Source of the DNA: Candidatus Krumholzibacteriota bacterium
GTDB lineage: Bacteria > Krumholzibacteriota > Krumholzibacteriia > Krumholzibacteriales > Krumholzibacteriaceae
Assembly (NCBI GenBank): GCA_016932415.1
Contig: JAFGCX010000017.1
Location: 32,310-96,309 of the forward strand
Direction of reading: 5' to 3'
DNA length: 64,000 nucleotides
A program made the position numbers and the translations under genes. This document shows positions 2,860-64,000 of this stretch, in pieces. The notes below the pieces were generated by a model, which was given only the letters and a program-made list of their open reading frames with translations, was not told the DNA's origin and did no database searches. Every line of letters begins with the position of its first letter. Position 1 is the stretch's first letter.

Positions 2860-3329
2860 CAGAACCTTCCTCCTTTTCTGACTGCACCGAAGTATCCGTG
2901 GACCTTCCCGCGAAAGGTGATTGCCTGTCCCATCGGGACGAGAGACCCTGATTACACATCCTTGCCGCCGCGCGAACTCCTCTACTCGGGAACGCGCCGG
3001 TCCATCCGGACACAGATTTCTGCTCTCACAGAATCTTCGGCATTGGACCAGGAGCACTTTAAGGTTTTTATTCGAGAACCGGGGATTACCCGCGGGTATT
3101 TCTTCCATTCACTCTGATTTCCCATTGTATCGGGAAATTTCCGGTCATTGCCGATAGTTGAGAACAGTTCTTGCAACCCAATCGCTTGACAAGCCAGGAG
3201 GCGTCATTGGTGGATGAGGTGTAATAGCCTCAATTATAAAAAGATATACGATTGTCGAGCAAAAGTATCAGGCACCGACACGACATGCGCAATAGGGGAT
3301 AAAGAATCAAATAATAATAAGTTATACCT
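2860..3329. other. Intergenic region between divergent gspG and the surface-protein operon
   Basis: This 470-base gap contains no convincing gene. Its gspG-proximal part, read on the minus strand, can fold into consecutive short hairpins (GTCCC-GAT-GGGAC, then ACCTT-tcgcggg-AAGGT) ahead of the gspG ribosome binding site, so a structured leader is possible. I did not recognise a known riboswitch class. The right part is AT-rich and must carry the promoter for the gene at 3330, but I could not place convincing -35/-10 boxes. Confidence 0.4.
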
Positions 3330-6300
3330 ATGCTGGTATCGATGGACAAGATGCGGAAAAGAAGCTTAAAAATCGCTAAAAAAGGAAAAACCGGTAAATT
3401 ATTGCCCACTGTAGCTGCAATTCTGGCATTCAATTATCTTCTCTGTGCCTCCGGCTCACGAGTCCTGGCTGACCAGGGGGGAGAATGGAGCCCGGATAGA
3501 CCTCAAGCCGCCGTCGCTGTGACCGCGGGGTTATGGATCACCGAAGTATCCTGCCCGTACGATACTCTCGCAATCAATCAGAAGAATATACCGGTGACAG
3601 TCAGGGTGAAGAACCTTTCTGACTCGGAGATCAGTATACAGCTTCTGTCGCTGATCTTTACCTATGTCTCATCGGGGGATCACAATTCAGATTACACGGT
3701 CACAGGGTCGCCGAGCGCCGACTCGCTCCTTTCGCCGGATATGACGGGCACTTTCGAATTCGATATAGATGTCAATCCCGATGCTATTACCGATGTCAAC
3801 ATTTCTGTCAAAGCGGTGGTCGTCGGAGAGAAACAGGACAATCTGCAGATCATATCGGCGAGAAGTGACGACATCATCTACGCGCTCGATAGTTTTTCCA
3901 TAGTAGCTCTCGACAATAATGATGGAACGTATAACTGGCGGGCTGAGTGGACGGAGATCGGCGAGTCGGATGGTCCCGGAATCGGAAAGATACAGGTAGT
4001 CGAAAGCCCGGGAAATCTGCGGATCGGTGACCCCGCTTCATATTCCCCCGTGGGAGTCAGCAGAGCGATCAAACTTGGTGACGCGGGCAGGGCCCTTCTT
4101 GAGTTCAGTTGGGCGAGGGATCCCGCATACGGGTTTAACGGGACCCTGGTCGTCGAAATATCCGAGAACGGGACAGACGGATGGGAGACGATCTTTACTG
4201 TTGGAAGTGGTCCCGGCACATCTTTCGCGACACAGATCTTTGATATGTCAGATTATATCTCCGACGATACTGCTATCCGTCTCATGACTTCCGGGACCTG
4301 TTCGGGAATTGTATATTTCGACGATATTAAGGTGACTCCCGAGACTTTGACCGGCGCGTTCGACTGGACCGTTCTGTCCGATGTCATCTTTTTTACCGCC
4401 GCTCTTTTTGACACGAAGAATTCAAGAGTGCGGGCGGACGATGGACTACTTTTTGTTTCGGATGAGGAAGGAGTGATCCTCAACAATATACATTATTTGA
4501 ATGGCGGCAGACCGTTGATTTCGATCCCATTTGAGCAGGAAACGCTCTATCGCCTCGTCATCCAGTTCAATTCGACATTTGACTGGGACTGGGAACCTAA
4601 GGAAAGTGAAGAAGGCTACGTCGCCTTCAACGATTCTTCTCTTGGTTTCGGGAGGATCTCGGCCCCTCGACCCGGCCTGAAGGAGCTTCTTCTCTCCGAA
4701 TTGATGATAGGGGACGAGGAGGCCGATCCGGCTGATTATCTTATAGGCGCAACCAAAAGCGACGATCCCGTTATCCCCTGGACGATGAAGACCGATCCCC
4801 TGCTCGACCCGAAAGTGGACGATGGGAAAGTCAAGGAGTATGGTGCTCTGGTGGAGGGATTAGATCCTCCGAGGATGATCATCGACTGCAGGGATGATGA
4901 TAAACACTGGGAAATAACGGGCAACTGCGAGTCGGACCGCTACTATTTCCACGAAGTATGGTTTAAGCCGGACCTTGAATGGGCGCATGGCGATACGGCT
5001 GACATCTTTCTTCATCTCGGCGGCAAGGAACCGGACGAAAACCTCGACGAGCTCCATCTTCTCCTCAGGATGATAGACGATGATTACGCAGGTCCAGTCA
5101 TCTCGGATTTTTCCCCCGAAGTACTTCCGGCAGGGGCTGTGGATTATATAACATGTCTTATAACCGATCCGAGCGGCGTCTATGACGACGAGTCGGGGGC
5201 GGGTGGCCAGGGAGTATATCTTCTCTGGGATACCGATGGCAGCCTTGAAGACGATTATAATGAAATGCTGATGTCCCCGGCGGGCGGCGGATATTTTACA
5301 AGCGACGGGATGGTCGGAGGAGTGGCGGAAGGGACAGACCTGGTATACAGGGTCTTCGCCTGCGACGACGATTCCGACAGGGGGGCTCCGGACAGGAGCT
5401 GTTCGGTGAGCAGTATACAGCATATCCAGATACTCGGTTCGGCGATAGTATTCGACAACCCGTCAACGCTTACGCCCGATTTCGTGTACCCGGGAGATGA
5501 GGATCAGGTCTTTTCGATCAAAGTCAGCAATCCAAATCCAGAAAATATAGTAATTCTACCCGCGGTATCGTATCTGCAAATAGATGACGGTGATTCGATC
5601 ATCACGACTTACCTGGCAAACGAGACCCTTCTTGTCCCGGGCGCGACTCAATTCCCGATTTCATTCGATCCGGTCGATATTCCTGAAGATTTTTCCGCTC
5701 CCGATTCTCTCGAGCTGACCCTCCACCTTGAGGGGACTTTCATGGGATTTATATTCTGGGAGCAAACCTGGACAGCTTCCATCACGAACAGGCTAATAGT
5801 CAGGGAACCTCTCCTGCTGATCGAAGCTCATTCGATCGCTTCGGTAGATGTAAACCCCGGAGATAGAAAAATTGAACTGATGCGCCTGGAGATAAGCCTC
5901 GATGGCATCGGTGATATATCGATCGATAGCCTCGTTGTCTTGAATCCAATTGGCAGCGAGGCTGAGCGTTCGGGAAGCGATTCGAATTTTGAAAGATTGT
6001 ATCTTTACAAGGAGGCTGATGTTCCCGAGACGACCGGTCAAATCGAGGAAGACGCCGGGGAGCCTCTCCCGGCGAGCAGGCCGCTGGGCGAAGGAGATTC
6101 TCTTCTGGCCGAGGCTGTTTTTGAAAACAGAAGGGCCGTATTCGATCTGTCGAGTGGAAAGGTGATTCATCCCGGAGAATCTGTCTATTATTACATCGCC
6201 GCGGATGTCGATTCATTTTCAGCCCGGGATGGAGAATATCTCGACGTTGAGATCGACTCTCCCGATTCGATCCATATCTCGGGAAATGCATCGATATTTA

Positions 6301-16025: not shown

Positions 16026-17471
16026 ATGACTGCGGCGGCAAGTATTGATGAGGAAAAAAAGACCGAATTGACGGTCGAAAAGACGAGGACCAGCCTTGAC
16101 AACCGCGATTATTCATTCGATGCGCTTTTCCGTCTTTTTGAGAAACTCGGGACGACTCTCGAACTTGACAAGGTCATCAGGCTTTTTGTCATGACCTTGG
16201 CCGGGCAATTGAGCCTGGGGCAGATATCATTCTATCTTTTTTCGAGGAAAACGGAAAAACTCGATTTATACTATTCACTCGGACTGGGCCGGGAAAACAG
16301 CGTTGATTCAATCTCAATCGATTCAGGTTTTGTCAATTGGCTTTTGTCGCGGGGATATCCGGCTAAGATAGAACTATTCGTGGCGAAACCGGATGATAAC
16401 AGCGACGAAGATCAGAATGTCAAAAACCTACTGGTGGACGACTCGTTCAGGTACGCTTATCCACTGATCGATGGAGGCGAACTGCAGGGGATGATAATTT
16501 TCGGTGACAGGATCACCGGTGAAGGATTCACCGATTTCAATATAGAGATACTCCACATGATGACGAGGATCGCGTCAATGACTGTTAAAAACGCGGCACT
16601 CTACGAACATATGGTTCAATCCAGGATAAAACTAGAGAACTTCTCGAAAATGAAAAGAGAATTCATGCATCATACGTCGCATGAACTGAGAACGCCATTG
16701 ACAATACTTAAAAGTTCCCTCTCCTCGATCGATCCGAGGGAAGGAAGCGACGCGATGCTTGTCAATATAGCCATGGAAGCTGTCAATAAGCTCGCCGAAC
16801 TGGTAGAACAGGTCCTTTCCCTGAACGCCGTAGAATCGGACGAGTCGTTTTTTAATTTCCAGAAAACAGAGATGGCCGGGTTCCTCGAAAAATATTCGAC
16901 AGATATCATTTCCGTTCTGGCCGAAAAAGGGATAACGTTGAAATTCGATAAAATCGGAGAGGCGAGAATAATCAGGGCCGATTCGGCAAAGATACGCATC
17001 GCCCTGGACAGGATAATCGATAACGCGGTCTCCTCACTCTACACGGGCGGTACAATCTGTCTTGAGAGTTCTTTCAACGTCAATGATCCGGACGATTCTG
17101 AAGGAGTCGAGATTAGGGGGGGAGCCCCGGGAGTTGAATCCACCTTTTTAGCTGAGAACAGACGTGAAGAAGAAGGATACGGGGAAGGCGCTGGTCGTTC
17201 GATAGACAAAATAAAAGCCGGGGATGATTTCGAAGGGTATTTCGTGATACGTATCAGGGATGATGGCGTCGGTATACCCGCCGGAGAGATCAAGGATATG
17301 GGAGAACCGTTCACCAGAGCTTCCAACTCAAGGACAAGCGAAGTTAAAGGGCTCGGTCTCGGGCTTTCAGTCTCGCAGAAGATAATCGCCGGTCACGGCG
17401 GGCACCTTCTATGTAAAAGTTCAGAAGGGAACGGGGCCGAATTTTCCATATGGCTTCCTGTCGCGAAGTGA
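16026..17471 (+). CDS. GAF-domain sensor histidine kinase
   Basis: Soluble histidine kinase of 481 residues without evident membrane segments. Residues about 30-200 resemble a GAF sensor domain. The HisKA dimerisation domain carries the H-box HHTSHELRTPLTIL with phospho-acceptor His219, and the ATPase domain has an N-box (DRIIDNAVSSL), G1 (RIRDDGVGIPAGEI) and G2 (GLGLGLSVSQKI). A poorly conserved insert of about 45 residues (roughly 355-400) lies between the N and G1 boxes. The ATG at 16026 is preceded by AAAGGG. It is the last of five co-directional genes with gaps of 26 bases or fewer; no response regulator follows, so its partner must be elsewhere or it acts with the partner-switching proteins just upstream. 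Confidence 0.88.
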   Translation: MTAAASIDEEKKTELTVEKTRTSLDNRDYSFDALFRLFEKLGTTLELDKVIRLFVMTLAGQLSLGQISFYLFSRKTEKLDLYYSLGLGRENSVDSISIDSGFVNWLLSRGYPAKIELFVAKPDDNSDEDQNVKNLLVDDSFRYAYPLIDGGELQGMIIFGDRITGEGFTDFNIEILHMMTRIASMTVKNAALYEHMVQSRIKLENFSKMKREFMHHTSHELRTPLTILKSSLSSIDPREGSDAMLVNIAMEAVNKLAELVEQVLSLNAVESDESFFNFQKTEMAGFLEKYSTDIISVLAEKGITLKFDKIGEARIIRADSAKIRIALDRIIDNAVSSLYTGGTICLESSFNVNDPDDSEGVEIRGGAPGVESTFLAENRREEEGYGEGAGRSIDKIKAGDDFEGYFVIRIRDDGVGIPAGEIKDMGEPFTRASNSRTSEVKGLGLGLSVSQKIIAGHGGHLLCKSSEGNGAEFSIWLPVAK

Positions 17472-17500
17472 CAGACACCACAAAAGGATTCCCAGTCATT

Positions 17501-17531
17501 AAAAAACGCCACGCCCATCAGGGGCGCGGCG
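17501..17531 (-). terminator. Rho-independent terminator of the PadR operon
   Basis: Read on the minus strand, a GC-rich hairpin (GCCGCGCCCC, loop, GGGCGTGGC) is followed directly by six T. It lies just beyond the stop of the minus-strand gene ending at 17562. Confidence 0.8.
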
Positions 17532-17561
17532 AACATAAAATCCAGGATTCCACGGCGGGTG

Positions 17562-17948
17562 TTATTTGAGCGCGCCCTTGATCCTGTTGTAGCGGGCAAG
17601 TAGAATAAACCAGACGATACCGGAAACGATCAGGACGTGGATGCCATAAATCGTTGTTGTAAGGGCCTGGCCGAAGCCGGACGCGATAATTGCCGGGGAA
17701 AGCGATTCGGCCCGGGAGATCGCCAGCATCGCGTTATAGATACCGGTGGCCTGTCCCAGAATACCGGTCACGGCGCTAATGACCCCCCAGAAGATTATCG
17801 CGTGCAAACCCTTGAACAGCTGAGCGTTTGAAAGTCCTTTTCTGAAATATAGATCAACGGTCTTTTTAACAACGAGCGCGATTATAGCGAGACTTATTAT
17901 GAACAGGGGCACAGCCCAGGTCCCCATTGAAGTAATGAAGTATCTCAT
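17562..17948 (-). CDS. Small TolQ/ExbB/MotA-like membrane protein
   Basis: Protein of 128 residues with three predicted membrane helices (about 10-30, 45-65 and 95-118). The segment TGILGQATGIYNAMLAI ... GFGQALTTTIYG resembles the pore-forming part of MotA/TolQ/ExbB proton channels (glycine-rich helix, then the AL-TT-x-G motif), but it is shorter than those proteins and no ExbD/TolR/MotB partner is encoded nearby. The start has AAAGGAGATGAT upstream. It is last in a padR-led operon, 11 bases after a larger protein whose C-terminal half has the same pattern. Specific function unknown. Confidence 0.75.
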   Translation of the reverse strand: MRYFITSMGTWAVPLFIISLAIIALVVKKTVDLYFRKGLSNAQLFKGLHAIIFWGVISAVTGILGQATGIYNAMLAISRAESLSPAIIASGFGQALTTTIYGIHVLIVSGIVWFILLARYNRIKGALK

Positions 17949-50437: not shown

Positions 50438-50509
50438 ACGTGAATTCACGCGGTGGGGCAGGGCTCGTCCCTCCCCGCCGTACAATATTGGAACCGGCGA
50501 GGCGGCGCC

Positions 50510-53500
50510 GTGAGAAAGCAAGTATTCCATAAAGCAATACTCTGCAGAGACAGCAGAGAGAGGTTCGCGATAACCGTGTGCCTCTTTCTGCTCGTTTCGT
50601 TTCTCGCGGGCGCCGCTTTCGCGCAGGTACCCGGTCCCGGTGATATGATCACCAGCAGGACTGAAGGGGCTTTCAGGCTCGGAGGCAACGACCTTACCGC
50701 CTTTTCCAATACAGTCTCAATCGGCCTGCTGCCCGTTTACGGACCGATGCTGCTTCCTGACGGGAGCGTTACGGCCCCGGCCGCCACGGCGGCCGCCTTC
50801 AGCGGCGAGCAGGTCATATTCCAGTATACCCTCGGCAATTCGGGAAATGATGAAGACTCGTTCGATCTCTTCGCCGCGGTGCTTTCCCCTTCCGATTTTA
50901 TCCCTGTCAACATAGAGATTTATCTCGATCAGGACGGCGATGGCCTTATCGATCCCGGTGAGGAGACGATAGTCCAGGCCGGGCCCCTCTCTCCCGGCGA
51001 GAGCGTTCATCTGGTAGCTTCCGCGTGGTTACCATCCGGTCTCAGCGGAGCTCAGAGAGCCCATCTCGATATCAGGGCGCGGTCGGTGAGCGATACCTCG
51101 GCGGTGGACGCCGGCAATGTCGTGCGGATCGAAGCGCGCAACGAGGCGAGCATTTCGCTCGTGACAGAGGCCGACAGGCCCGAAGTGATGCCTGGCGAGA
51201 CTTTCTATTACACGCTCGATTACGTGAACACCGGCGAGAGGGAAGCAGAGGATATAATAATCACAGATTTCATAGATTATTCAGGGATGAGCGGCGGAAC
51301 AGAGTATCTGCCCGGTTCGGCTGTCTCATCCCTGCCCGGAATGATAGAGTATTTTGACATTGAGCTTTTCGAATGGGTAGAAGTCGCACCGCCGGCAGAG
51401 AGAGTCAAAGGTGTCCGCCTACACCTTGAGACTCTCATCGCCGGCGCCGGCGGCTACCTGTCGTTCGCGCTCAGGGTCGATGACGATCACGAGAGCGGGC
51501 CTCTGTACAATACCGCCTCGTGCCTCTTCACCGGGGTGGATGCCCAGCCGTACAGTCTGAATTCAAACGAGCACCAGGTCATGGTCGGACAGATCAGCGC
51601 TCTCGATATAGGCCCGGCGGGAGACCCGTCCGCGCCCGAAGGAAGCGCGGCCGACCGGGTCGTGATCTCTCTTGCCGGAAGCGATTCGACAATAATCTTC
51701 TGGCACGAGATATTCAACGGCGGCAACTATATGGACACTGTCGAGATCGTCCTTGCAGATTCGGCCATGGTACATCCCGACTGGACGATGGAGTTCATCG
51801 ACGGATCGGGATATCCCCTCTCGAGCACCTCGCAGTATACGGCGGCGGCAGGAGTGATCCCTCAGAATGGATCGGTCGTCGCCGGGCTGAGGATCAGTTC
51901 GACAGCGGAAAGACTCCGGGCGTTCGAAGGAAGAGAACTCGATCTGACGGTTGAAGCGCGATCGCTCGTCGACGACGGGTCGAGAAACACGGTACATGAC
52001 ATCCTGGTAAAGGCAGATATTCCGCTTCTTTCGGTCAAGCAGTCGGTAAGGGAGACGAGCGTTATGACCGGTGATATCGCCAGCTATATCGTAACAGTCG
52101 AGAACCTTACCGAAGAGACGACAGTCGACAGCATCATTTTGGTCGAAAGAGTCTCTCCTGGACTCGGTTACGTCGGCGGAAGCGAAAAGCCCCGGATCAA
52201 CGGCAACATCCTCAGGTGGGAACTTGGCAGGCTCGAACCGGGAGAAAAGAAGGAAGTAGTCTTCAGGGCTGCCGTCAAGGCGGGCCAGGAGAAGGGACAT
52301 TTGACCAGCAGCGCCTGGGTCTACGGCATCTCGGTCCTTGGGGAGAGGACGGCGGACGGTCCGGCTATCGCCTCTGTCAGGATAATAGATGGGCTCTTTT
52401 CCCGGAAGGGGATCGTCTTCGGTTCGGTCTTTGTCGATAAAGACGGGGACGGAATGCGCGAGAAGGGAGAAAAAGGGATCAAGGGGGTCTCGGTATATCT
52501 CGAGAACGGGACTTACGCGATCACAGATTCATCCGGAGCGTATACCCTGCCCGGAACCTATGAAGGAACGCATGTCGTCAGGGCTGATCCGAAGACCTTT
52601 CCTGATTCTCTCGAAGCGGGAGCGTCTGCGCATTTCGGCCTGCGGGTCGAGGGAGAGTACCTGATCGACCTGCCGCCGTCGGGAAACCGGCGCGTGGATT
52701 TTCCGCTTCGGGCCCGAGTCGCCGCCGCGGCGGGAAGCGCTCCATCGGGATATTCAGAAAATAAAGACAGTACTGGCGCCATGATTGCCCGGGAGGAGAG
52801 TGGTCCGGAAACGCCGGAAGAGGGACTTTCCGGGCAATCTGGCGCGTATGGTAACAATACGTCGAAGGCCCGCTCAGGCGGCTCCGCGACTGGAGATTCA
52901 GATCCTGCCGGCCGGGCGACAGGCGGCCGGGATAAATCGATCACCAACAGAGCGGATGGATACGAAGCTATCACTATTCCGAGCGCCTATTTCAGCGCGG
53001 CCAGCGCCATCCTGGAGGAGATCCCGATAAGGGAGGTCGCTTCGCTCGGCCTGTGGATGATGGAACATCCCGGCTGGCGGATCATGATCACAGGGCATAC
53101 TGACAGTATTCCGATAAGTACGATCGATTATCCTTCGAATTTCGAACTATCCCTCGGCAGGGCGCGCTCTGTCTTCCAGCTCCTCAGGATGAACGGGATA
53201 CCGGAAGAAAAGATGGATTATTCCGGCGTCGGAGACAGGTATCCGATAGCGTCTAATTCCACTGCCGAGGGCAGGGCGCTTAACAGGCGGGTCAACATAA
53301 AGGTGATCCCGCCAGACTCCTATTCCGAAGGGGATCCGGGGCTGCCGGCGATCTTCGCGATGCCAGACACGACGGAGAAGAGATATTCACTCGCCGATGA
53401 CGCGGGAATTTGTTCCAAGATCGTCTCCCCGGACGAAGGGCATATTTTCACAGCACGCGACAAGATCGACGTCGAGGTCGTCACTCCCCTCTCGGCCGGA

Positions 53501-56404
53501 GTGGAGCTTTACGTGAACAACATCCCGGTGGGCAGGGAAAAACTTGGCCAGAAACGGATCGATACGGGGAACAACACTCTCGGCGTGATCTTCTACGACG
53601 TCAAGATCGCCGTCGGAAGGAACGACATCCTCGTCGTCTGCAGAAACCGCGGCGAACGGTCGGTATGCGTGCGGTACGTCTACCTTGCCGGCAACCCGGC
53701 GGGGATTGTCGCCGAGAGGGAAAAAATCTCGATACCGGCGGACGGCAACTCTACGCCCGAGATCATCTTCCTCGTAAACGACGAATCAGGACTGCCTGTA
53801 CGCGACGGGATCTTCGTCACGCTCGATGGCCCCGGGCACCTGATCGGAAAGCTCGATATCAACCCCCACCAGCCGGGAGTCCAGCTCGCCACGGAAGGCG
53901 GCAAGGTAGCCTTCACCCTGCCAGGATCGAGAGATCCGCTGCGGACGAAGATCGATGTCGTCCTCGATCGCCTGAGCGCGTCGTGCGGCGTGACATACGA
54001 ATCGCCTATGCGCGACTGGTTCCTCTTCGGTTTTGGAGAGGGAGAGATCGGTTACAGCAGCCTCTCTGGCGCCGCTCCCGTATACAGGACTGACGAAAAG
54101 TTCCATGACGGTCTCTTCGCCGAGGGGAAACTCTCCCTTTACGGACAGGGAGAGATAGCGACCGGCCACTTGATGACGCTGGCGGTCGACACGAGACCGA
54201 TACGCGAGGATATCCTGCTCGGAAGGATAGAACCGGAGAAGCAGTATCCGCTATATGGCGACGCGAGCGAGTTAAAGTTCAATTCCGCCTCCAGAAGCGG
54301 TACTTATCTGCGAGTCGATAACAGGCGCTATAACGTGATGTTCGGAGATTTCAAAACGGAACTCGGCGGGTTGGAATTCACCAGATATAACAGGACTTTC
54401 AACGGAGTAAGGGGAGAAGCGAATTTCACGCGCGGCGGAATAGCTACGTTCATCACAAGGACCGACCAGGTCACATGGCAGGAGGAGATAAACGCTGACG
54501 GGACGAGCGGCTTCTATTTCCTCTCGCATTTTCCACTGACCGAACATAGCGAGGAAATAAGGATCGAGGTGCGAGACAGGTACAGGCCGGAGAATATCAT
54601 CCGCGTCGATGACAAGAAATTCGGCCGCGACTATGACATAAACTATATGGATGGTTCGATCCTTTTTAAGGAACCAGTTGCAGCGAGGGACCGCGATCTT
54701 AATCCGGTGACGATCGTTGTGAGCTATGAATGCCGCGATTCAAAATCGATAAACTTCATTTACGGGATAAGGCCGACTTTCGAGATAACGGACAGCCTCA
54801 GCGCCGGGGCGACGGTAATCATCGAAGAAGAGGGAACTGGCAACTCCTCGATCACCGGTATCGATCTCTCCGGGTACCTGTACAGGGGAGTATCGATAGA
54901 AACAGAATATACGAGAAGCGACAAGTTCCTCCTCGGGAAGGGTGAAGCCTTCCGGGTCCGGTTCGCGGGGAGTTCGAAATCTCCGTTGAAATGGAGCGCC
55001 TATTACCGCGATGTCGACGCGAACTTCTATAACCCAGGATTCACCGGCGGCAAGACCGAGCTCGGCAGCAGAAAGACGGGGATCGATCTGAGCTGGATGA
55101 TAAACAGCAGGTACTCAGTCGCGGCGAAGGCGTTCGATCACTATTTCAGGGAGCGTGGCGAAGAGAAAAGATATCTCGACCTTTGCGGCCGCTACAGATC
55201 CGGCTGGCTCACTTCGAAGGCGGGATTCGGAGCGGCATCTTACGACGATAACGACGGAAGCCGGCGGTCGGCGGCTCTTCTGATAGCCGCGGCGGGGTTT
55301 GATAAGGGAAGATCGAAAGGGGAGCTGCAGGTAGATCAGATAATCGGAGGAGAAGAGGTCGAGGAATATCCGAACAGGATACAGGCAGATCTGTCTTACG
55401 AACTCTGGAAGAATATAGACGGGACGCTCAAGCATGAATACCGCACAGGCAGACGCACGGGAACAAGGCATCTTACCCAGCTCGGGCTCGAATCGAGGAT
55501 CAATGAGGATCTGAGCCTCTATTCGAGATACAGGATGGAGGGAGCGATGTCGGGGGAGAGGGGGCAGTCCGTAATAGGCCTGAAAAACAGGTTCAGGCTG
55601 AGCGACGCGCTTACATCGACAGTCACGGTCGAGAAGCTTGCCACTGTAAGCGGAGCGGCGAATGACGACTATACCGCATTCTCGACCGGGTGGCTCTACA
55701 CACCCGCCGGAGAGCTTTACAAGCTGAAGGGGGATTACGAGATCAGGATCGAACCGGAACGGGTCAAGCATCTCGTCGGGCTCGCAGGAATCAAAAGACT
55801 TGGAAGGCGCTGGTCGGGCATTTTCAAGGGAGACCTCTGGTATTCGAACGAGGAAATCGAATTCGACAGGGTCAAGGGTAGCTCGACCCTCGGCAGTTCT
55901 TTCAGGCCGGTCGACGGCGGGCCGCTGACGATCTTCTCTCTTGCCAGAACAAGGTACGAGAAGAACAGTCCGGCCCACCCGGGAACTGTCGACAAGGACC
56001 TGACGATAATGACGGAAGCGAATTACCTGCTTGGTCCGAAGTGGGAAGCAGAGGGAAAGATCGCCGGAAGGTGGGTAAGGAACTGTTTTAAATCATATAC
56101 GGCGAGCAGCGCGTCTTTCCTCTGGCAGGCAAGTGTTCTCAGGACGTTTGAATATGGGTGGGACCTTGGTATCAGCGCCAGGATCGTTCACCAGCGCGAA
56201 ACGTCGACAGTCAGGTATGGCGGTGGCCTCGAGGTCGGGAAGGTGGTGGCGGAAAATGTCTGGGTAGGGTGCGGGTACGATTTCGGCGGGCACAGCGACT
56301 CCGACGCTTCGATAAACGATTTCGAGAAAAACGGATTCCACGTGGGGATGAAGATGAAATTCAACGAGAAGATACTCGACTATTTTTATGCCGGGAAAGA
56401 ATGA
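50510..56404 (+). CDS. Giant DUF11-SdrD-OmpA protein with C-terminal beta-barrel
   Basis: Protein of about 1964 residues. Signal peptide (VCLFLLVSFLAGAAFAQ, cleaved near 39), then several DUF11-type Ig domains (about 40-630), an SdrD B-like domain with calcium loop (FVDKDGDGMREKGEKGIKGV, about 640-700), a low-complexity Gly/Ser linker, an OmpA peptidoglycan-binding domain (about 820-935; ITGHTDSIPIS and ALNRRVNIKV), Ig-like segments (about 965-1160) and a large region of amphipathic strands (about 1165-1964) that looks like an outer-membrane barrel (opening FGFGEGEIGYSSLSG; PLYGDASELKF, YNVMFGDFKTELGG). The GTG at 50510 is chosen for its GAGGCGG site; a GTG at 50453 is an alternative. It could anchor the DUF11 array to both outer membrane and peptidoglycan. 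Confidence 0.85.
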   Translation: MRKQVFHKAILCRDSRERFAITVCLFLLVSFLAGAAFAQVPGPGDMITSRTEGAFRLGGNDLTAFSNTVSIGLLPVYGPMLLPDGSVTAPAATAAAFSGEQVIFQYTLGNSGNDEDSFDLFAAVLSPSDFIPVNIEIYLDQDGDGLIDPGEETIVQAGPLSPGESVHLVASAWLPSGLSGAQRAHLDIRARSVSDTSAVDAGNVVRIEARNEASISLVTEADRPEVMPGETFYYTLDYVNTGEREAEDIIITDFIDYSGMSGGTEYLPGSAVSSLPGMIEYFDIELFEWVEVAPPAERVKGVRLHLETLIAGAGGYLSFALRVDDDHESGPLYNTASCLFTGVDAQPYSLNSNEHQVMVGQISALDIGPAGDPSAPEGSAADRVVISLAGSDSTIIFWHEIFNGGNYMDTVEIVLADSAMVHPDWTMEFIDGSGYPLSSTSQYTAAAGVIPQNGSVVAGLRISSTAERLRAFEGRELDLTVEARSLVDDGSRNTVHDILVKADIPLLSVKQSVRETSVMTGDIASYIVTVENLTEETTVDSIILVERVSPGLGYVGGSEKPRINGNILRWELGRLEPGEKKEVVFRAAVKAGQEKGHLTSSAWVYGISVLGERTADGPAIASVRIIDGLFSRKGIVFGSVFVDKDGDGMREKGEKGIKGVSVYLENGTYAITDSSGAYTLPGTYEGTHVVRADPKTFPDSLEAGASAHFGLRVEGEYLIDLPPSGNRRVDFPLRARVAAAAGSAPSGYSENKDSTGAMIAREESGPETPEEGLSGQSGAYGNNTSKARSGGSATGDSDPAGRATGGRDKSITNRADGYEAITIPSAYFSAASAILEEIPIREVASLGLWMMEHPGWRIMITGHTDSIPISTIDYPSNFELSLGRARSVFQLLRMNGIPEEKMDYSGVGDRYPIASNSTAEGRALNRRVNIKVIPPDSYSEGDPGLPAIFAMPDTTEKRYSLADDAGICSKIVSPDEGHIFTARDKIDVEVVTPLSAGVELYVNNIPVGREKLGQKRIDTGNNTLGVIFYDVKIAVGRNDILVVCRNRGERSVCVRYVYLAGNPAGIVAEREKISIPADGNSTPEIIFLVNDESGLPVRDGIFVTLDGPGHLIGKLDINPHQPGVQLATEGGKVAFTLPGSRDPLRTKIDVVLDRLSASCGVTYESPMRDWFLFGFGEGEIGYSSLSGAAPVYRTDEKFHDGLFAEGKLSLYGQGEIATGHLMTLAVDTRPIREDILLGRIEPEKQYPLYGDASELKFNSASRSGTYLRVDNRRYNVMFGDFKTELGGLEFTRYNRTFNGVRGEANFTRGGIATFITRTDQVTWQEEINADGTSGFYFLSHFPLTEHSEEIRIEVRDRYRPENIIRVDDKKFGRDYDINYMDGSILFKEPVAARDRDLNPVTIVVSYECRDSKSINFIYGIRPTFEITDSLSAGATVIIEEEGTGNSSITGIDLSGYLYRGVSIETEYTRSDKFLLGKGEAFRVRFAGSSKSPLKWSAYYRDVDANFYNPGFTGGKTELGSRKTGIDLSWMINSRYSVAAKAFDHYFRERGEEKRYLDLCGRYRSGWLTSKAGFGAASYDDNDGSRRSAALLIAAAGFDKGRSKGELQVDQIIGGEEVEEYPNRIQADLSYELWKNIDGTLKHEYRTGRRTGTRHLTQLGLESRINEDLSLYSRYRMEGAMSGERGQSVIGLKNRFRLSDALTSTVTVEKLATVSGAANDDYTAFSTGWLYTPAGELYKLKGDYEIRIEPERVKHLVGLAGIKRLGRRWSGIFKGDLWYSNEEIEFDRVKGSSTLGSSFRPVDGGPLTIFSLARTRYEKNSPAHPGTVDKDLTIMTEANYLLGPKWEAEGKIAGRWVRNCFKSYTASSASFLWQASVLRTFEYGWDLGISARIVHQRETSTVRYGGGLEVGKVVAENVWVGCGYDFGGHSDSDASINDFEKNGFHVGMKMKFNEKILDYFYAGKE

Positions 56405-56469
56405 CACGACGACGTGAGATATCCGCCATGGAGGGCGGCTTTCCCGGTCTTTAAAGAGAGAGACGGCAG

Positions 56470-59400
56470 ATGAGGATTTTCAAAGGCAGAAAAGAAAGGG
56501 CAGCTTTCCGGGCTATGGCGCTCGTATCGGCGGTGATCATCTCTGTCGCCGGCGGAGAGGCCGGAGGCGCGGAACTGATAGATGGAGGCACTTTCGAATC
56601 CGGTTCTTTCAGCGGGAGCTGGACGCACAATGGCGGGAACACGCTAGGGTTCACCAATCCAAGCTGGGCCGATCACGATGTCGTTCTGGATCTCCCTTAC
56701 AGCGGAAACTATAGCGCTCTCCTCGGTTTCAAATACACGACTCAGCGAAGGAACCGGTTGGGGTTCATGTATCATGACGTGACCATTCCCGCCGATATTT
56801 CGAGCGCTGTCCTCTATTTCGTCTTCCGGCAGCAGGGGTATGACGGCGTGAACTATGACCCGTTCACCGTGACGATAAGAAATACATCGAATACGGTGCT
56901 GGCGACCGTCGTCGATTTTTCCTTCTCCGAATGGGATAACCAGTTCAAGGACAGTGGCTGGATCGAAGATGATGGCGTGGGCCCGGTGGGGTATGATATG
57001 TCCGCGTGGGCGGGGCAGACTGTCAGGATCTATTTCAGGCAGATAAATACTTACGACAATTTTTACGAAACATGGACTTTCGTCGATGACGTCTCCCTGG
57101 TCGTCAGGCATTTCGCCGATCTCGCCGTCGACGGCGATGGCGACGATCTCTTTGCCGCGATCGGCAGCGGAGGCGGTGGATCATCGACCCGAAGTGGCGA
57201 GGAAGGTGAAACGGTGTCCTACCTGCTTGATATCGAGAACGAAGGGCTCGATATCGACTCCTACAACCTGTCCGTTTCACCTCCCGCCGGTTGGACCGTG
57301 ACGATAGAATACGGCGGAACGACATACCCCTTCCCATGGACGACTCCGTCGATCCCCGCGGGATCGTCGATAAGCGCCGAAGTCCATGTCGCCATACCTT
57401 CCGGTGAGCCTCTCGGCGGGTACGCGACGATACTCGACGCTGTCTCGGTCGCCCATGGCAACAGGTACGACAGCGCCACCCTCGGGACGAATGTAGTCCC
57501 TTCAGATCACCTGACCGATCTGGCGATAGATTCGAACGGGTTCGGCGTGATAGACCGATCAGGGGGCGGGGGGATATCGATCCGTAACTGCCCGGCTGAT
57601 ACGATTCTGGAGTACGCGATCGATCTGGTCAACGCGGGAACGCTCAATGATTCATTCACCGTATGGTTCACGCCCGGCGCGCCACTCTCGGCCGGGATAG
57701 ACGATGGCGCCACGGTCCATACGGGGCTTTTCACCACCGGCGGCATAGCTCCGGGAAGCAGCGAGCAGTATACGCTGAGAGTCACAGTCCCCGTTTCGTT
57801 GCCTGGAGGAGCGTACAATACCATAGTCTACGCCGCTTCTGTCACCGACACTTTGAGGGTCGATGCCGTTACGGCAAGGGCTATAGTGGCGGCGCCGAAG
57901 ATAGATATGATAATCGCCTCGAGCGGTAACGGTATCATAGATATGACAGCATCCGGGCTCGGCGGGAACAGCACGATCTCGGGAGAGAGGGGAAACACGA
58001 TCTATTTCCCCGTGATAATTCAGAACGAGGGAGGAGTCGCCGATTCGTTCGAGATCGACTGGGATTCGCCGGGAGGCGGATGGTCCGGGGTCATCAATGA
58101 CGGGACTTCAGATCACGACTTCCCGTGGGTCACTCCGGTCTTCGATCCGTACAGCGAGAGAGCATTCACCCTTGCCGTGACGATCCCCGGGAACGCGGCG
58201 TACGACACTTACCTATCCCTTCTAGATGCCATATCGGAGGTGGATGGAAATATCTCAGAAAGCGTTACGGCGGGGATCTCGGTCGCTTCGGGGAACGAGA
58301 TCGATCTTCTGATCGACGGGAACGGGGACGACACCTACGGACCGATCGATACGGGTCTCGGAGGCAGTTCGATGATCAGCGCCGATCCGGGCGACACTGT
58401 CTTCTTCAATATCACGGTACAGAACCAGGCTGGAGGGAACATATTCGATCTCGAGTGGGATACGCCAGCGGGGTGGGAAGTGGTGATAGGAGATTCGACT
58501 TCGTCGCTTTCGGGAGTCCCGGCCGGCGATTACACCCTGGAGGTCAGGGTGCCGGCTTCTTCGACTGGAGGCACCTTCGATATTATCCTCAACGGATACA
58601 AGGCGAATAAGAGATATTACGTCGACAGCGTCACGGGAAGGGTCGTCGTCTCTTCTCCCGCCCTTGTCGACGCTATTGTAGACGGCAACGGCGACGAACT
58701 GTTCGCAGCAACAGGCACGGGAGCCGGCGGATACTCGGCTCAGAGCACTGTCGGAGGCCAGCTTGTCAATTTCACCGTCGAACTGCAGAACCAGGGAGCT
58801 GATCCGGAAGAATACATAGTCGAATGGAACTCGATCCCAGGCTGGACGGCTACATTCCAGGGGGCCGCTTCGCCTGCGGCGACACCGGTCATCATAGACG
58901 GCGGGTCGGGGTTCTATATCTTTTCAGTCACCGCCCCTGTCTCCGCGCCGGAAGGTGATTATTCATACATAATAGACTTCATGTCGACCTCCGATTCGAC
59001 AAATGTAGAAAGCGTGACGGCCGAGGTCCATATAAACGCCCCTCCATTGGCCGATCTTATCATAGAGGGAGATGGAGCGTTCGACACGGCGCCGGCGGGG
59101 ACGGGAGAAGGTGGCCGGGCCGTCGTCTTCGGCGATCCGGGGTCTTTGGCGACCGCCCTGCTCGAGATCGTCAACAGGGGAGGATTCCCCGATTCGTTCC
59201 GGATCGTCTGGCAGGATCCAGCAGGATGGCCTGCCGGGTCGGTGCTTCTCTCTGACGGGGTGAGCGATTTCACATCGCCTTTCGTGACGCCGCTTATTGC
59301 TCCTGGCGGGTCGCTGGTATTCACCGTGAAGATGGCGATACCGGCAGGGGCGGGATCGCGGGCAGGGATCATAATCGACGCGATCGCGCTTTTGATGGAT

Positions 59401-60465
59401 ATCGAGGACAGCGTTCTGCTTGAAGTGCTAACCGGCGCCTTTGTAAGGGGGATCGTATTCGATGACAGCGATCATGACGGTATTTATGATCCGGGAGAGG
59501 CGGGCTGGAGCGGCGTAAAGATCACCTTCGCCGATCCGTCGGCCCCCGTCACTGTCTATACGGATGGGGGAGGAAGGTACCTTATCGGCGTACCGGCTGG
59601 ACCTGCTACCGATGTCATCGAACTGACGCCTGGAGGGATGATCAGTCTGAGCCCCGACACTGTACAGACGGGAGCGATCTCGGCAGGTGATACTATCGAA
59701 ATCGATTTTGCCGACGTAAGGATCTCAACGATAACTCCCGAAGTCAGCGCGAGCGGTCCGGCGGGAGGTTTTATCGAGCTTCCCCACACGATCACAGCCG
59801 GGACGGCAGGCCAGGCCACCGTATGGACGGCGCTGCCTGCAGGGTGGACCGATGTGTGGTACAGGGACGTCAACGGCGACGGAAGGCTCGACGGGCTTGA
59901 TACGAGGCTGACATCGGCAGACCTCGATATTGATCCGGCAGTGCCGGGGCGCGATATCATCCGGGTGATCGTAAGAGTATATATACCAACGCAGGCGGCG
60001 GCCGGGACTGTCGCTCCCGCCACAGTGACCCTTCAGCAGACTCTCGGCGGGACCTCTATCGTGACCTCGGCGCTTGTCTGCGACCAGATGACGGTCCTCG
60101 CCAGCGCAAGCGGGCTCCTCAGACTGGCCAAGGAGGTCGATCTGACCGCGGCAAGGCCGGGCGATATTGTGACATATACTATCGTTTTTTCCAACCCAGG
60201 TATCGAAGGAGTAAGCGAGATCGAGATTATCGATCCGGTCTCCCCCGCTGTCGAACTTGTCGCTGACGCTTTCGGACCTGGAAACGATATCGAATGGGTG
60301 CGCTCAGGCGTGCCAGTATATCTTACCGCCGAGCCCGCCGATGCCGATGAAGCGCTCTATGACATCGCTTCGGGAACACTGAGACTTATCCTTTCGAGGC
60401 AGGGTCCGTTCGTACTCCAAAGCGGAATGGCCGGATCTGTGAGCTACCGGGTGAGGATAAGATAA
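56470..60465 (+). CDS. Surface protein with jelly-roll head and six tandem DUF11-like repeats
   Basis: Protein of 1331 residues. A signal peptide (ALVSAVIISVAGGEAGG) precedes a galactose-binding-like/jelly-roll domain (about 30-215; FESGSFSGSWTHNG ... WTFVDDVSLVV). Six tandem units of about 128 residues follow, each starting D-x-x-x-D-G-N-G-D-like (coding positions near 57118, 57517, 57905, 58303, 58669 and 59052), then an SdrD B-like domain (FDDSDHDGIYDPGEAGWSGV, near 997) and a final DUF11 domain (about 1215-1331; LAKEVDLTAARPGDIVTY). The repeated Asp/Gly loops suggest calcium binding. Start uncertain: only a weak purine-rich site precedes the ATG. Third large member of the cluster. Confidence 0.85.
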   Translation: MRIFKGRKERAAFRAMALVSAVIISVAGGEAGGAELIDGGTFESGSFSGSWTHNGGNTLGFTNPSWADHDVVLDLPYSGNYSALLGFKYTTQRRNRLGFMYHDVTIPADISSAVLYFVFRQQGYDGVNYDPFTVTIRNTSNTVLATVVDFSFSEWDNQFKDSGWIEDDGVGPVGYDMSAWAGQTVRIYFRQINTYDNFYETWTFVDDVSLVVRHFADLAVDGDGDDLFAAIGSGGGGSSTRSGEEGETVSYLLDIENEGLDIDSYNLSVSPPAGWTVTIEYGGTTYPFPWTTPSIPAGSSISAEVHVAIPSGEPLGGYATILDAVSVAHGNRYDSATLGTNVVPSDHLTDLAIDSNGFGVIDRSGGGGISIRNCPADTILEYAIDLVNAGTLNDSFTVWFTPGAPLSAGIDDGATVHTGLFTTGGIAPGSSEQYTLRVTVPVSLPGGAYNTIVYAASVTDTLRVDAVTARAIVAAPKIDMIIASSGNGIIDMTASGLGGNSTISGERGNTIYFPVIIQNEGGVADSFEIDWDSPGGGWSGVINDGTSDHDFPWVTPVFDPYSERAFTLAVTIPGNAAYDTYLSLLDAISEVDGNISESVTAGISVASGNEIDLLIDGNGDDTYGPIDTGLGGSSMISADPGDTVFFNITVQNQAGGNIFDLEWDTPAGWEVVIGDSTSSLSGVPAGDYTLEVRVPASSTGGTFDIILNGYKANKRYYVDSVTGRVVVSSPALVDAIVDGNGDELFAATGTGAGGYSAQSTVGGQLVNFTVELQNQGADPEEYIVEWNSIPGWTATFQGAASPAATPVIIDGGSGFYIFSVTAPVSAPEGDYSYIIDFMSTSDSTNVESVTAEVHINAPPLADLIIEGDGAFDTAPAGTGEGGRAVVFGDPGSLATALLEIVNRGGFPDSFRIVWQDPAGWPAGSVLLSDGVSDFTSPFVTPLIAPGGSLVFTVKMAIPAGAGSRAGIIIDAIALLMDIEDSVLLEVLTGAFVRGIVFDDSDHDGIYDPGEAGWSGVKITFADPSAPVTVYTDGGGRYLIGVPAGPATDVIELTPGGMISLSPDTVQTGAISAGDTIEIDFADVRISTITPEVSASGPAGGFIELPHTITAGTAGQATVWTALPAGWTDVWYRDVNGDGRLDGLDTRLTSADLDIDPAVPGRDIIRVIVRVYIPTQAAAGTVAPATVTLQQTLGGTSIVTSALVCDQMTVLASASGLLRLAKEVDLTAARPGDIVTYTIVFSNPGIEGVSEIEIIDPVSPAVELVADAFGPGNDIEWVRSGVPVYLTAEPADADEALYDIASGTLRLILSRQGPFVLQSGMAGSVSYRVRIR

Positions 60466-60583
60466 TACAGGCGATCAAGCATCCAGCGCCCGCTGATAGG
60501 TAAATAACCCCAATCAATCTTCTTGACCTCCCCGGGTTTCCAAGGTAGTCTATTAATCGGTAAGGATTGAAAGGAGGTCCAAG

Positions 60584-61540
60584 GTGAAGAAAATCGTATT
60601 TCTGTTTATTCTCTGCTTTTTTCTGGCAACGGCCGGTTCACCTGTAGAAGCGGGCAGATGCTCATGCATGAAATGGAAAGACCGCCCCGAGCTTAATATT
60701 ACGCCATGCCAGATGTTCGCGCCCTGGTGGTTCAAATGCCGCGATTGCACCGATATAGATATGGATGGGATAAACGATTGCGACGACCAGTGTCTCGGAA
60801 CGCCGAGGAACGTCGTCGTCGATGAGTTCGGTTGTCCGATCGACTCTGACATGGACGGTGTTTTCGATGGCCTCGATCAGTGCCCCGCGACGCCTAAGGG
60901 AGCCAAAGTCGACAAAAGCGGTTGTCCGATCGACTCTGACAATGACGGTGTCTTCGACGGGATCGACAAATGCGAGAGAACTCCAAAGGGAGCGAAAGTC
61001 GACAAGAAAGGTTGTCCGATTGATTCTGACAAGGACGGTGTCTTCGATGGGATCGACAAATGTCCCGACACGCCGGCCGATCTTGCTGTTGATGACAGTG
61101 GGTGCCCAGTGCCGATGAGCGAGATCGAGACGGAGTTCATCAATACAGGCGTCATAACGACATCGAAGATAAATTTCGAATCGAACAAGGATGAGTTTCT
61201 GCCCGGCACGAAGAAAGTGATCGACGAAATAGGCGCGGTGCTGGTGCGCTGGCCTGACGCGAAGATAGAGATCGGCGGGCATACCGACGCCCAGGGAGCC
61301 GCTGAATACAACCAGAAGCTCTCTGAAAAGCGCGCCGCCGCTGTAAGGGCTTATCTCGTGTCCAAATATCCCAAGATGGATACGGCGAAATTGACAGTGA
61401 AGGGATTCGGCGAGAGCAAACCGGTCACGACCAATGATACGAAAGAGGGACGGGCGCAAAACAGACGCGTCGAGTTCAATGTTCTTAACAAGGAAGAACT
61501 AAAGAAGGAGATCGAGCGAAAAGGATTCAAGAAACGTTGA
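60584..61540 (+). CDS. OmpA-family protein with thrombospondin type 3 repeats
   Basis: Protein of 318 residues with a signal peptide (VFLFILCFFLATAGSPVEA). Four calcium-binding thrombospondin type 3 repeats (DSDxDGVFDGxDxCPxTP with GCP-x-DSD links) occupy about residues 55-175; an OmpA peptidoglycan-binding domain is at about 195-305 (ITTSKINFESNKDEFLPGTK, IEIGGHTDAQGAAEYN, GRAQNRRVEFNV). The start is a GTG with AAAGGAGGT ahead. It lies at the end of the DUF11 cluster with its own leader and a strong terminator, and probably tethers the outer membrane or surface layer to the cell wall. Confidence 0.92.
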   Translation: MKKIVFLFILCFFLATAGSPVEAGRCSCMKWKDRPELNITPCQMFAPWWFKCRDCTDIDMDGINDCDDQCLGTPRNVVVDEFGCPIDSDMDGVFDGLDQCPATPKGAKVDKSGCPIDSDNDGVFDGIDKCERTPKGAKVDKKGCPIDSDKDGVFDGIDKCPDTPADLAVDDSGCPVPMSEIETEFINTGVITTSKINFESNKDEFLPGTKKVIDEIGAVLVRWPDAKIEIGGHTDAQGAAEYNQKLSEKRAAAVRAYLVSKYPKMDTAKLTVKGFGESKPVTTNDTKEGRAQNRRVEFNVLNKEELKKEIERKGFKKR

Positions 61541-61573
61541 TCCAGTGCCTCGATTCTGTTGATAGGTTACCAG

Positions 61574-61607
61574 AAGAGCAGGGCGCGTACCCTGCTCTTT
61601 TGGTTTA
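61574..61607 (+). terminator. Terminator of the OmpA/TSP3 gene
   Basis: AAGAGCAGGG-cgcgta-CCCTGCTCTT, a 10-base-pair stem, followed by TTGGTTT. Confidence 0.88.
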
Positions 61608-61638
61608 AACATGCTAATTAACGAAAGGGATTCTGGCG

Positions 61639-62463
61639 ATGAAGAAAATAAATCTCCGCAGGCTGGCAGTTCTGTTTTTTGTCGCTCTCTTCGTTCTGGT
61701 ATCGGGACAGGACCTGAGCGCCCAGCAGAAGAAGGGAAAAGGGGGAAAAGAAAAAGGACAGAAGAAAGAGACCGTGGAAAAGGTCGCTGGAGAGAAAAAA
61801 GAGATGAAGGAAAGAGCGGACTCCCTCTCTAGAGGCGGGGAAAAAACTGGGTATAGACCGAAGAGATTAGGGAATGAAGAGGCAGCGCAATGGGAAGGGG
61901 ACCGGCCTCCCGGATGGTCAAGAGGCGGAAAGACAGGATGGAGTGGCGCTGACATGCCAAAGGGGCAAAAAAAAGGAGACGCGGAACGGAACAGGGAGAT
62001 GAAGAGAAGATATCCGCCCGGAGCAAAGAACTGGGACGATAAAAAGAAGGAAAAATGGGATAAGCATCTCGAGGAGTCAAAAGATCGAGTACGAAGAAAA
62101 GCACACGATAAAAGAGGGGCGGCTGGAAAATACGGGGATAGCGCCGTTATTTCTATAGAAGAAGCGGCGCGAGGCGGTGTTCCGGTCGATAAGGCTGAGG
62201 CTGTCGTCGAAAAAGCGATTGAACGCGATATGGAGGGCGAAGAAATAGAAAAAATGACCAGGGCGATGACCTACGGCGCGGACAAAAACGTCGACTATGA
62301 AAAACTCGATACCTTTATAGGCAAAAAGATCGATTCGGGAGAACGAGGCGACGATCTGGCCGTATCGATATACAAGGAGATCGACAGCGGATCGCTGGAA
62401 AAGACAGAAGAAACGAAGGAAGAAAAGAAATCGGTCTGGAAAAGGATTTTTAAAAGAGATTGA
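61639..62463 (+). CDS. Lysine-rich exported protein of unknown function
   Basis: Protein of 274 residues. Signal peptide (RLAVLFFVALFVLVSGQDLSA) then a strongly basic, low-complexity stretch (KKGKGGKEKGQKKETVEK, about 30-60), a Gly/Arg/Trp-rich segment (GDRPPGWSRGGKTGW) and further charged sequence. The last 110 residues form a more ordered acidic domain (SIEEAARGGVPVDKAEAVVE ... RGDDLAVSIYKEI). No family recognised. The ATG is preceded by AACGAAAGGGA. It lies between the surface cluster and the integron integrase and has terminators on both sides, so it is a single transcript. Confidence 0.75.
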   Translation: MKKINLRRLAVLFFVALFVLVSGQDLSAQQKKGKGGKEKGQKKETVEKVAGEKKEMKERADSLSRGGEKTGYRPKRLGNEEAAQWEGDRPPGWSRGGKTGWSGADMPKGQKKGDAERNREMKRRYPPGAKNWDDKKKEKWDKHLEESKDRVRRKAHDKRGAAGKYGDSAVISIEEAARGGVPVDKAEAVVEKAIERDMEGEEIEKMTRAMTYGADKNVDYEKLDTFIGKKIDSGERGDDLAVSIYKEIDSGSLEKTEETKEEKKSVWKRIFKRD

Positions 62464-62487
62464 AAGTGACAACCGCTCTGCTATCGT

Positions 62488-62550
62488 AAATGTCCCTGCG
62501 GGTCTGGCGGCGAGTTCCGCAGTCCGCAGGGACGTTTCAAACTGTTTTTT
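62488..62550 (+). terminator. Long hairpin after the lysine-rich protein gene
   Basis: AAATGTCCCTGCGG (62488-62501) pairs with CCGCAGGGACGTTT (62524-62537), a 14-base-pair stem with one G-T, followed 7 bases later by six T (62545-62550). It is most simply a terminator, although it also lies directly upstream of the integrase. Confidence 0.65.
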
Positions 62551-62637
62551 AATTGAAAAATCCACATCTTTATAGTAGAAGTAGCGAAAGTAGAGATGAT
62601 TTTCATGACAGGGACTTTTATAAAGAAAACATCGTAG

Positions 62638-63768
62638 ATGAACGAAACGACCTTCATCCACAGCTTTAACAGCTACGGGAAAGAACCTCTTTACCGCCTG
62701 GATCGGTGTTGCCTCTATAATTCTGAGACGATAATCCGTGAGACTGTGGCAGAAAATGATGACTCCCGGTTCATCGTGATGGACTCACAGCGGCAATACG
62801 GAGGAAAAAAAGTAAAACTTCTCGATAAAGTGAGAAATACCATTCGCTCCAGGCACTATAGTCCCCGCACAGAAAAGGCATACACCGGCTGGATCCGCCG
62901 TTTCATATATTTCCATGGAAAGCGTCATCCTTCTGGAATGGGAGAAGCGGAGATCACCGAGTATCTTTCGTATCTTGCTACAAGGCGCAAAGTCAGCGCG
63001 TCTACGCAAAACCAGGCTCTCAGCGCGATACTGTTTTTATACAAGGATGTGTTGGGCATCAATCTGGGCTGGCTTGAAGGAATCGTCAGGGCAAAACGGC
63101 CGAGGCGAATGCCAGTTGTGCTGACTCGAAACGAGATCCGGGCTATCCTTGCGCAGATGAGAGGAGTGCAGCGGCTTGCCGCGTCGCTGATGTACGGCGC
63201 GGGGCTGCGTTTGACGGAAACACTGAATCTGCGGATAAAGGATATCGATTTTGATCGCGGCGAGATCATCATTCGGCAGGGAAAGGGACGCAAAGACCGG
63301 ATCACAGTCCTCCCTGATCCACTTAAAGCAATCTTAATGAAGCATATCGAGCATGTCAGGAAGCAGCATCAGAACGATCTGCAAAGAGGGTTGGGAAGCG
63401 TCCAACTTCCCAATGCGTTGGAGATCAAATATTCGAAAACTGCCTGGGAGTGGGGATGGCAATGGGTATTTCCGGCGGCCAGGTTTTACAGGGACACGGA
63501 GAGAGGCGTATACCGAAGGCACCACCTTCACGAATCGGCAGTCCAGCGAGCAGTAAAGGAGGCGGTCAGGATCTCGGGAGTAGCTAAAAATGCCAGCTGT
63601 CACTCACTGCGGCATTCTTTTGCCACGCACCTGCTAGAGAACGGTTACGATATCAGGACGATCCAGGAACTGCTCGGGCATAAAGATGTCAATACTACGA
63701 TGATATACACACACGTATTGAACCGTGGCGGCAAAGGAGTACGCAGCCCGATAGAAGGGCTGCTATGA
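62638..63768 (+). CDS. intI: Integron integrase (IntI)
   Basis: Tyrosine recombinase of up to 376 residues that recombines attI and attC sites to capture gene cassettes. The core-binding domain (RSRHYSPRTEKAYTGWIRRF) and catalytic domain align closely with class 1 IntI. Catalytic residues are present: Arg in MYGAGLRLTETLNLR, Lys in RQGKGRKDR, HSLRHSFATHLL, the final His in LLGHKDVNTTMIYTHV and its Tyr. The integron-specific insertion (WEWGWQWVFPAARF, then RRHHLHESAVQRAVKEAV) separates it from XerC/XerD. About 50 residues at the N-terminus are extra relative to IntI1; the ATG at 62779 is an alternative start. No attI or cassette was recognised inside the window. Confidence 0.92.
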   Translation: MNETTFIHSFNSYGKEPLYRLDRCCLYNSETIIRETVAENDDSRFIVMDSQRQYGGKKVKLLDKVRNTIRSRHYSPRTEKAYTGWIRRFIYFHGKRHPSGMGEAEITEYLSYLATRRKVSASTQNQALSAILFLYKDVLGINLGWLEGIVRAKRPRRMPVVLTRNEIRAILAQMRGVQRLAASLMYGAGLRLTETLNLRIKDIDFDRGEIIIRQGKGRKDRITVLPDPLKAILMKHIEHVRKQHQNDLQRGLGSVQLPNALEIKYSKTAWEWGWQWVFPAARFYRDTERGVYRRHHLHESAVQRAVKEAVRISGVAKNASCHSLRHSFATHLLENGYDIRTIQELLGHKDVNTTMIYTHVLNRGGKGVRSPIEGLL

Positions 63769-63808
63769 TCATAAAAATTTTTCCATGCAGTGATACGAGA
63801 GAATGGAG

Positions 63809-63977
63809 GGATAATCGCAGTTATTATCCGGTTATCCAGCATAGCCCTCGCAGGATATCAATTAAAAGCGGATGCGGCGACAGCGTCTAAAAGTTGGCTT
63901 TTGAGGGAGTTATGGACAACAGGACCATTTTAATAGTTGATTTATACTGCATTCCTTCGCAGTATTTATCCGGTTAT
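63809..63977. repeat. Repeat- and hairpin-rich segment downstream of the integrase
   Basis: Exact 12-base direct repeats TTATCCGGTTAT at 63824-63835 and 63966-63977, plus two perfect 7-base-pair inverted repeats (GGATAAT...ATTATCC, 63809-63829; ATACTGC...GCAGTAT, 63944-63965) each next to one repeat copy. No GTTRRRY/RYYYAAC recombination core was found here by eye. Confidence 0.5.
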
Positions 63978-64000
63978 ATAGTTCAGTAGACTTATTGTTA

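Follow-up and report, generated by a model that had tools for sequence, protein, structure and literature searches.

The usual description of an integron has a single integrase and a single attI. The recombinase gene at the right edge of the DNA analysed here raises the question of whether it encodes a true integron integrase and, if so, where its attI site and cassettes lie and whether it serves one attI or several. The window, by which we mean the whole stretch of 64,000 nucleotides, corresponds to positions 32310-96309 of contig C17 in a genome (G000) of 3.11 Mb, 38 contigs and 95.5% completeness. The host belongs to the class Krumholzibacteriia, which is FCB-type, as had been guessed in a reading made from the sequence alone. 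The genes concerned are as follows.

62638..63768, + strand: intI, a tyrosine recombinase of the integron integrase type that has the insertion specific to IntI (TIGR02249, PDB 2A3V, IntI clade, single copy)
61639..62463, + strand: neighbour gene, 274 aa, of no Pfam or NCBIfam family, co-directional with intI; a homologue lies 3.4 kb 5' of intI in the relative G011

The intI product of 376 aa (62638-63768, + strand) is as the sequence-only reading described it, and the full tyrosine-recombinase catalytic set and IntI-only insertion that were claimed for it are both present. By motif, the catalytic residues are R191, K216/K219, H322, R325, H348 and Y357, which is the full set. TIGR02249, the NCBIfam integron integrase model, matched residues 61-375 with 454.6 bits against a cut-off of 265. 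The nearest solved structure was IntI4 (PDB 2A3V, 304 bits, compared with 68 for XerD), and the alignment to it is unbroken across the IntI-specific insertion (ALEIKYSKTAWEWGWQWVFPA, residues 260-280, around WGWQWVFP). Because the homology begins only at residue 57-61 or thereabouts, translation may in fact start at M48 (62779) and not at 62638.

The tyrosine-recombinase fold and its motifs are common to IntI and to XerC/XerD, and taken by themselves they would equally suit a protein of the latter type. However, the XerC and XerD models gave 155 and 151 bits, both far under their own cut-offs, and in a maximum-likelihood tree of 40 recombinases the intI product fell inside the IntI clade, alongside class 1 IntI1, with support of 100/100, while three Xer-type proteins from the same genome fell outside it. 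This placement already refutes a Xer-type identity, which the scores of TIGR02249 and of the structure comparison and the IntI insertion also oppose, and we give that identity virtually no credence. Judged by its sequence, 62638-63768 encodes a true IntI. The suggested closeness to class 1 IntI did not hold up, since the identity to IntI1 is 51.7%, not especially close, compared with up to 68% for relatives of the same class. With this identity, and on a long chromosomal contig with no mobile-element context seen near intI, the gene does not belong to the mobile class 1-3 integrons. A genome-wide search revealed no other copy of IntI. At the left end of contig C25 (L010:150-983) we noted a 306-aa XerA-like recombinase at the contig end, without the IntI insertion and 40% identical to IntI, which is possibly another mobile element.

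A strong IntI match was found in 44 of the 146 relatives searched, G000 counted in. In the tree, the IntI of the sister species G001 (L075:9988-10932) grouped with those of an actinomycetote MAG and of another phylum, apart from the G000 IntI; it would therefore appear that intI also moves between lineages, and this placement suggests transfer between phyla. In addition, the window encodes two very large secreted repeat proteins of 1983 and 1331 aa (50453-60465). In the relative G007 the homologues of these proteins come straight after the cassette array; in G000 the two precede intI, and the neighbourhood is therefore conserved with rearrangement.

The region between intI and the end of the contig contains the following features.

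63769..64000, + strand: attI region, the intergenic stretch that follows intI and reaches to the end of the contig; aligned to relatives with assembled arrays and repeated on contig C31
63815..63835, + strand: direct repeat 1 (TTATCCGGTTAT-type), which may bind IntI and matches 63957-63977 at 90% over 21 nt
63957..63977, + strand: direct repeat 2, the same TTATCCGGTTAT-type motif, adjoining the crossover; match to repeat 1

The window edge coincides with the contig edge: C17 ends at 64000, which is 232 nt past the intI stop and 3 nt past the predicted crossover (after G63997, TTATTG^TTA, G63997^T63998), placed by aligning the region to that of relatives and to the C31 copy. On this prediction the contig end would cut off the first cassette after 3 nt. 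In the relatives, the distance from the intI stop to the G^TT point of attI is about 110-220 nt or more. Where more 3' sequence is available, relatives carry attC 3' of intI on the same strand, and in several of them the attC fold single-stranded as long imperfect hairpins, with z-scores down to -9.7. A contig break within 400 nt 3' of intI was found in 8 of the 29 relatives listed, and within 400 nt 5' in none of the 29. As the relatives' attC sit 3' of intI on the same strand, the polarity of the integron is inverted, and the C31 copy gives the direction of attI in G000 itself; the order read from these alignments is intI, attI and then cassettes, all on one strand. The prediction of the sequence-only reading that cassettes would lie past 64000 and not to the left agrees with the attC positions in relatives and with a contig that stops 3 nt past the crossover.

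The 21-nt direct repeats in the attI region are possible IntI binding sites. A scan of the window for a Pc promoter gave matches at chance level only, TTGACA/TATAAT-like pairs were spotted by eye in the attI of some relatives, and Rfam at gathering thresholds gave no match in window 60000-64000. Toxin-antitoxin-like genes were observed just 3' of intI, between it and the first attC, in several relatives (L083, L084, L080).

When G000 was searched with the last 101 nt of the window, a second place, 85% identical, was found on contig C31. The two regions correspond as follows.

63805..64000, + strand: matches L109:14508-14702 on C31 at 83% over 192 nt; the similarity runs to the last known base, 3 nt past the crossover
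63943..64000, + strand: 58-nt attI core, an exact match to the C31 copy by sequence comparison

The C31 attI sits after purA and tRNA-Lys and runs on into a small cassette-like ORF, and C31 ends 90 nt later; no intI was found near it. The purA-tRNA-Lys order is kept in the family, and the sister species has another gene after the tRNA, by eye an MscS-like channel. The exact repeat of 58 nt is a likely cause of the assembly break. It could also mis-join contigs, and C17 and C31 both end at the repeat or within about 90 nt of it, as would be expected if this were an ordinary one-array chromosomal integron and the C31 attI an assembly or binning artefact or a strain variant. However, upstream of the core the copies diverge (83% over 192 nt) and their flanks are unrelated, C31 carries the core genes clpX, lon, purA and tRNA-Lys in conserved synteny, and attI copies lacking intI recur in five further genomes, of which one is a single contig. 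An artefact or strain variant is thus very improbable.

To search for attC, we used a covariance model (R1) built from full-length attC of the class, which is almost sequence-only and retains only 5 pairs in its consensus structure because MAFFT misaligns the attC arms. In G000, it detected 5 attC at the right end of contig C38 (best E 1.5e-14) and 3 at the left end of C30 (best E 7.5e-9), these E-values being rough. Arrays of attC are thus present in G000, as they are directly 3' of intI in relatives, and with the tree neither of the two outcomes that would have spoken against the sequence-only reading was obtained. Most G000 attC fold better than shuffles as the bottom strand; L184:2492 and L142:1963 do not. 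A hand-written attC scanner found the class arrays and missed those of G000, the contig ends of which looked like background to it. A structure-based, arms-only model (R2) works on individual loci; genome-wide it misses its own training genomes, and its negative result for G000 was discarded.

Both the C38 and the C30 arrays are headless, the head of the array lying beyond the contig end, and G000 therefore has two attI heads (C17 and C31) and two headless tails (C38 and C30). An end overlap of C17 or C31 with C38 or C30 was sought, and 3 nt were found for C17-C38 and none for the other pairs tested. The natural reading is that of two arrays and one integrase, with heads paired to tails by accounting and not by sequence overlap. 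An MBL-fold protein and a CBM_4_9-like protein are among those encoded by the cassettes. Several other elements were observed in or beside arrays. IS110/IS1111-like ends lie inside attC at L142:1-56 (on C30) and in G007 arrays (L070 ~2700-3720, L215 ~16700-17900) and are reminiscent of the attC-targeting IS1111 group; the end at L142:1-56 is the probable reason why contig C30 breaks there. Next to the C30 array (L142:2312-4998) lie genes for a uridine-kinase-like and a SIR2-like/TPR protein, possibly for defence.

For the relatives, the 92 nt around the crossover from 24 other integron genomes were joined into a single query for a search of the same genomes. This gave the 24 expected places and nine others (four in G007, two in G012 and one each in G038, G032 and G135), which together with G000 gives ten extra intI-less attI copies in 6 of the 25 integron genomes. 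Neither intI nor a remnant of it was found near any of the ten. The matched control used the final 92 nt of intI, which adjoin attI, and these had no second copy in the six genomes. Extra control hits in G046, G060 and G077 matched segments of other genomes' intI and were set aside as most likely conserved motifs of other recombinases.

G007 is assembled as a single (gapped) contig, and each of its four copies is followed by attC-bounded cassettes in the right orientation.

G007 copy at 861.6k: followed by attC at 860.8k, 858.7k and 857.7k, right orientation
G007 copy at 3816.9k: followed by attC at 3815.5k, right orientation
G007 copy at 3814.7k: followed by attC at 3814.0k, right orientation
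G007 copy at 816.1k: followed by attC at 815.0k, right orientation

The copy on C29 of G012 is likewise followed by attC in the right orientation; no attC was found after the copies on C1 of G012 and C290 of G135, despite more than 1 kb of downstream sequence in each, and three of the copies lie at contig ends. The 861k locus of G007, with three attC and no intI, is a CALIN as defined (at least two attC, no intI) that has an attI in addition; the other G007 copies have a single attC each. Two of these copies lie 2.1 kb apart (G007:C1:3812500-3817000) in the arrangement attI-genes-attC-gene-attI-gene-attC. Elsewhere in G007 (G007:C1:1507700-1522100), a minus-strand attC cluster was observed with no attI detected at its head. 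Dispersed attC clusters were also seen in G008, G013, G014 and G020, which have no strong IntI match; because many intI-less relatives carry CALINs, such genomes are unusable as a negative control for attC.

Compared with the intI-linked attI, the copies showed an identity of approximately 0.87 in the 60 nt before the crossover and 0.63 at 60-120 nt. Past the crossover it fell to about 0.5, which is background; G012 is the exception, as the 40 nt that follow are identical at both sites. This peak of conservation is partly one of ascertainment, as probes of 92 nt favour the region within 85 nt, and only the contrast within those 85 nt and the sharp end at the crossover therefore carry weight. 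The homology of the copies starts at differing distances from the crossover.

Considering these results, we think it likely that the locus is part of a chromosomal integron in which a single integrase is accompanied by several dispersed attI platforms and probably acts on them in trans. IntI would recombine the attC of circular cassettes, folded as single strands, with the G^TT of attI, so that new cassettes would be placed adjoining attI. In G000 and some relatives the same site also stands elsewhere on the chromosome as intI-less copies, most of which, where enough sequence is assembled, are followed by attC-bounded cassettes. The single IntI would most likely serve these platforms too, recombining at the copies in trans, and the cassettes there may be expressed. 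Continued use by IntI would account for the conserved core, which is no proof of such use.

Two accounts of how the copies arose have to be weighed against this proposal or beside it. They might be remnants, left when a whole integron or an attI with its array was duplicated and intI was deleted, and now decaying as functionless CALINs. CALINs in general have been proposed to be degraded integrons (PMC9024848, PMC8618304), relatives without intI also bear attC clusters, and a PPIase-IS-attC segment of 1.15 kb is shared by the 861k array and the intI array of G007, where a segmental duplication of attI and array is possible. However, no trace of intI lies beside any copy, and no second 3' end of intI was found even in G038, whose copy spans precisely bases 1-197 downstream of the intI stop, at 94% identity. 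The core near the crossover is also more conserved than the rest, and we consider the remnant account unlikely.

Alternatively, attI may spread in unusual cassettes that consist of a gene followed by attI instead of attC and are inserted by IntI at secondary sites. Delta-attI-type cassettes do recombine with IntI1 (PMC12901181), the 3814.7k attI of G007 lies inside the array of another copy (attC-gene-attI-gene-attC), and the intI-attI unit of an inverted integron is itself laid out like a cassette. Against this, the 5' ends of the copies yielded neither an attC nor a crossover signature, and the start of their homology varies in its distance from the crossover. We regard such spread as doubtful; it is an account of where the copies came from, and it does not conflict with one integrase serving several platforms. 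A broader view is that the integrons of Krumholzibacteriia are distributed systems, with one integrase and free-standing attI platforms copied around the chromosome, so that at least some CALINs would be working satellites and not remains. This we advance tentatively, as a nearly balanced matter.

If intI-less attI sites head cassette arrays, the origin of CALINs becomes testable. In that case, a cell could also express several new cassettes at once from several promoters or genomic positions. The intI-less copies suggest that a single enzyme may supply more than one gene-capture station, where the textbook has only one. The finding also adds Krumholzibacteriia, a class absent from the integron-bearing phyla listed in PMC8618304, to the integron hosts. 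In the open-access literature searched, we found no report that mentions Krumholzibacteriota and integrons together and none of free-standing attI copies heading chromosomal arrays, which is no proof of novelty. IntegronFinder 2 seeks attI for class 1 only, other attI being poorly described (PMC9024848).

Among known systems, the sedentary chromosomal integrons of the Vibrio/Xanthomonas type likewise combine the IntI family, attI and chromosomal arrays of attC cassettes. Unlike in that type, intI is here transcribed towards attI, and a genome may hold several intI-less attI. Inverted polarity has been described for the chromosomal integrons of Treponema (PMC3607928), with one attI per integron, whereas the extra attI found here are scattered over the genome. 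The integron of Gemmatirosa kalamazoonensis (NZ_CP007129) has an IntI that is 57% identical and an inverted polarity, with 36 attC 3' of intI. Its attI occurs once in the replicon, unlike the multiple copies here, and extra attI copies are therefore not a general property. CALIN elements are also attC arrays without an adjacent intI, in genomes that may have intI elsewhere. They are about as common as complete integrons in one survey, which called them probable degraded integrons (PMC9024848); off-target insertion, intI loss and rearrangement have been proposed as their origins (PMC8618304), and in Xanthomonas they lie at several fixed loci away from intI (PMC12444791). However, CALINs are defined by attC only and are usually read as degraded or off-target, whereas several arrays here keep an attI head and some have a single attC. 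Finally, the Delta-attI-type cassettes of mobile integrons (PMC12901181) likewise carry attI apart from intI; those lie within class 1/2 arrays, whereas the attI copies described here are free-standing and chromosomal.
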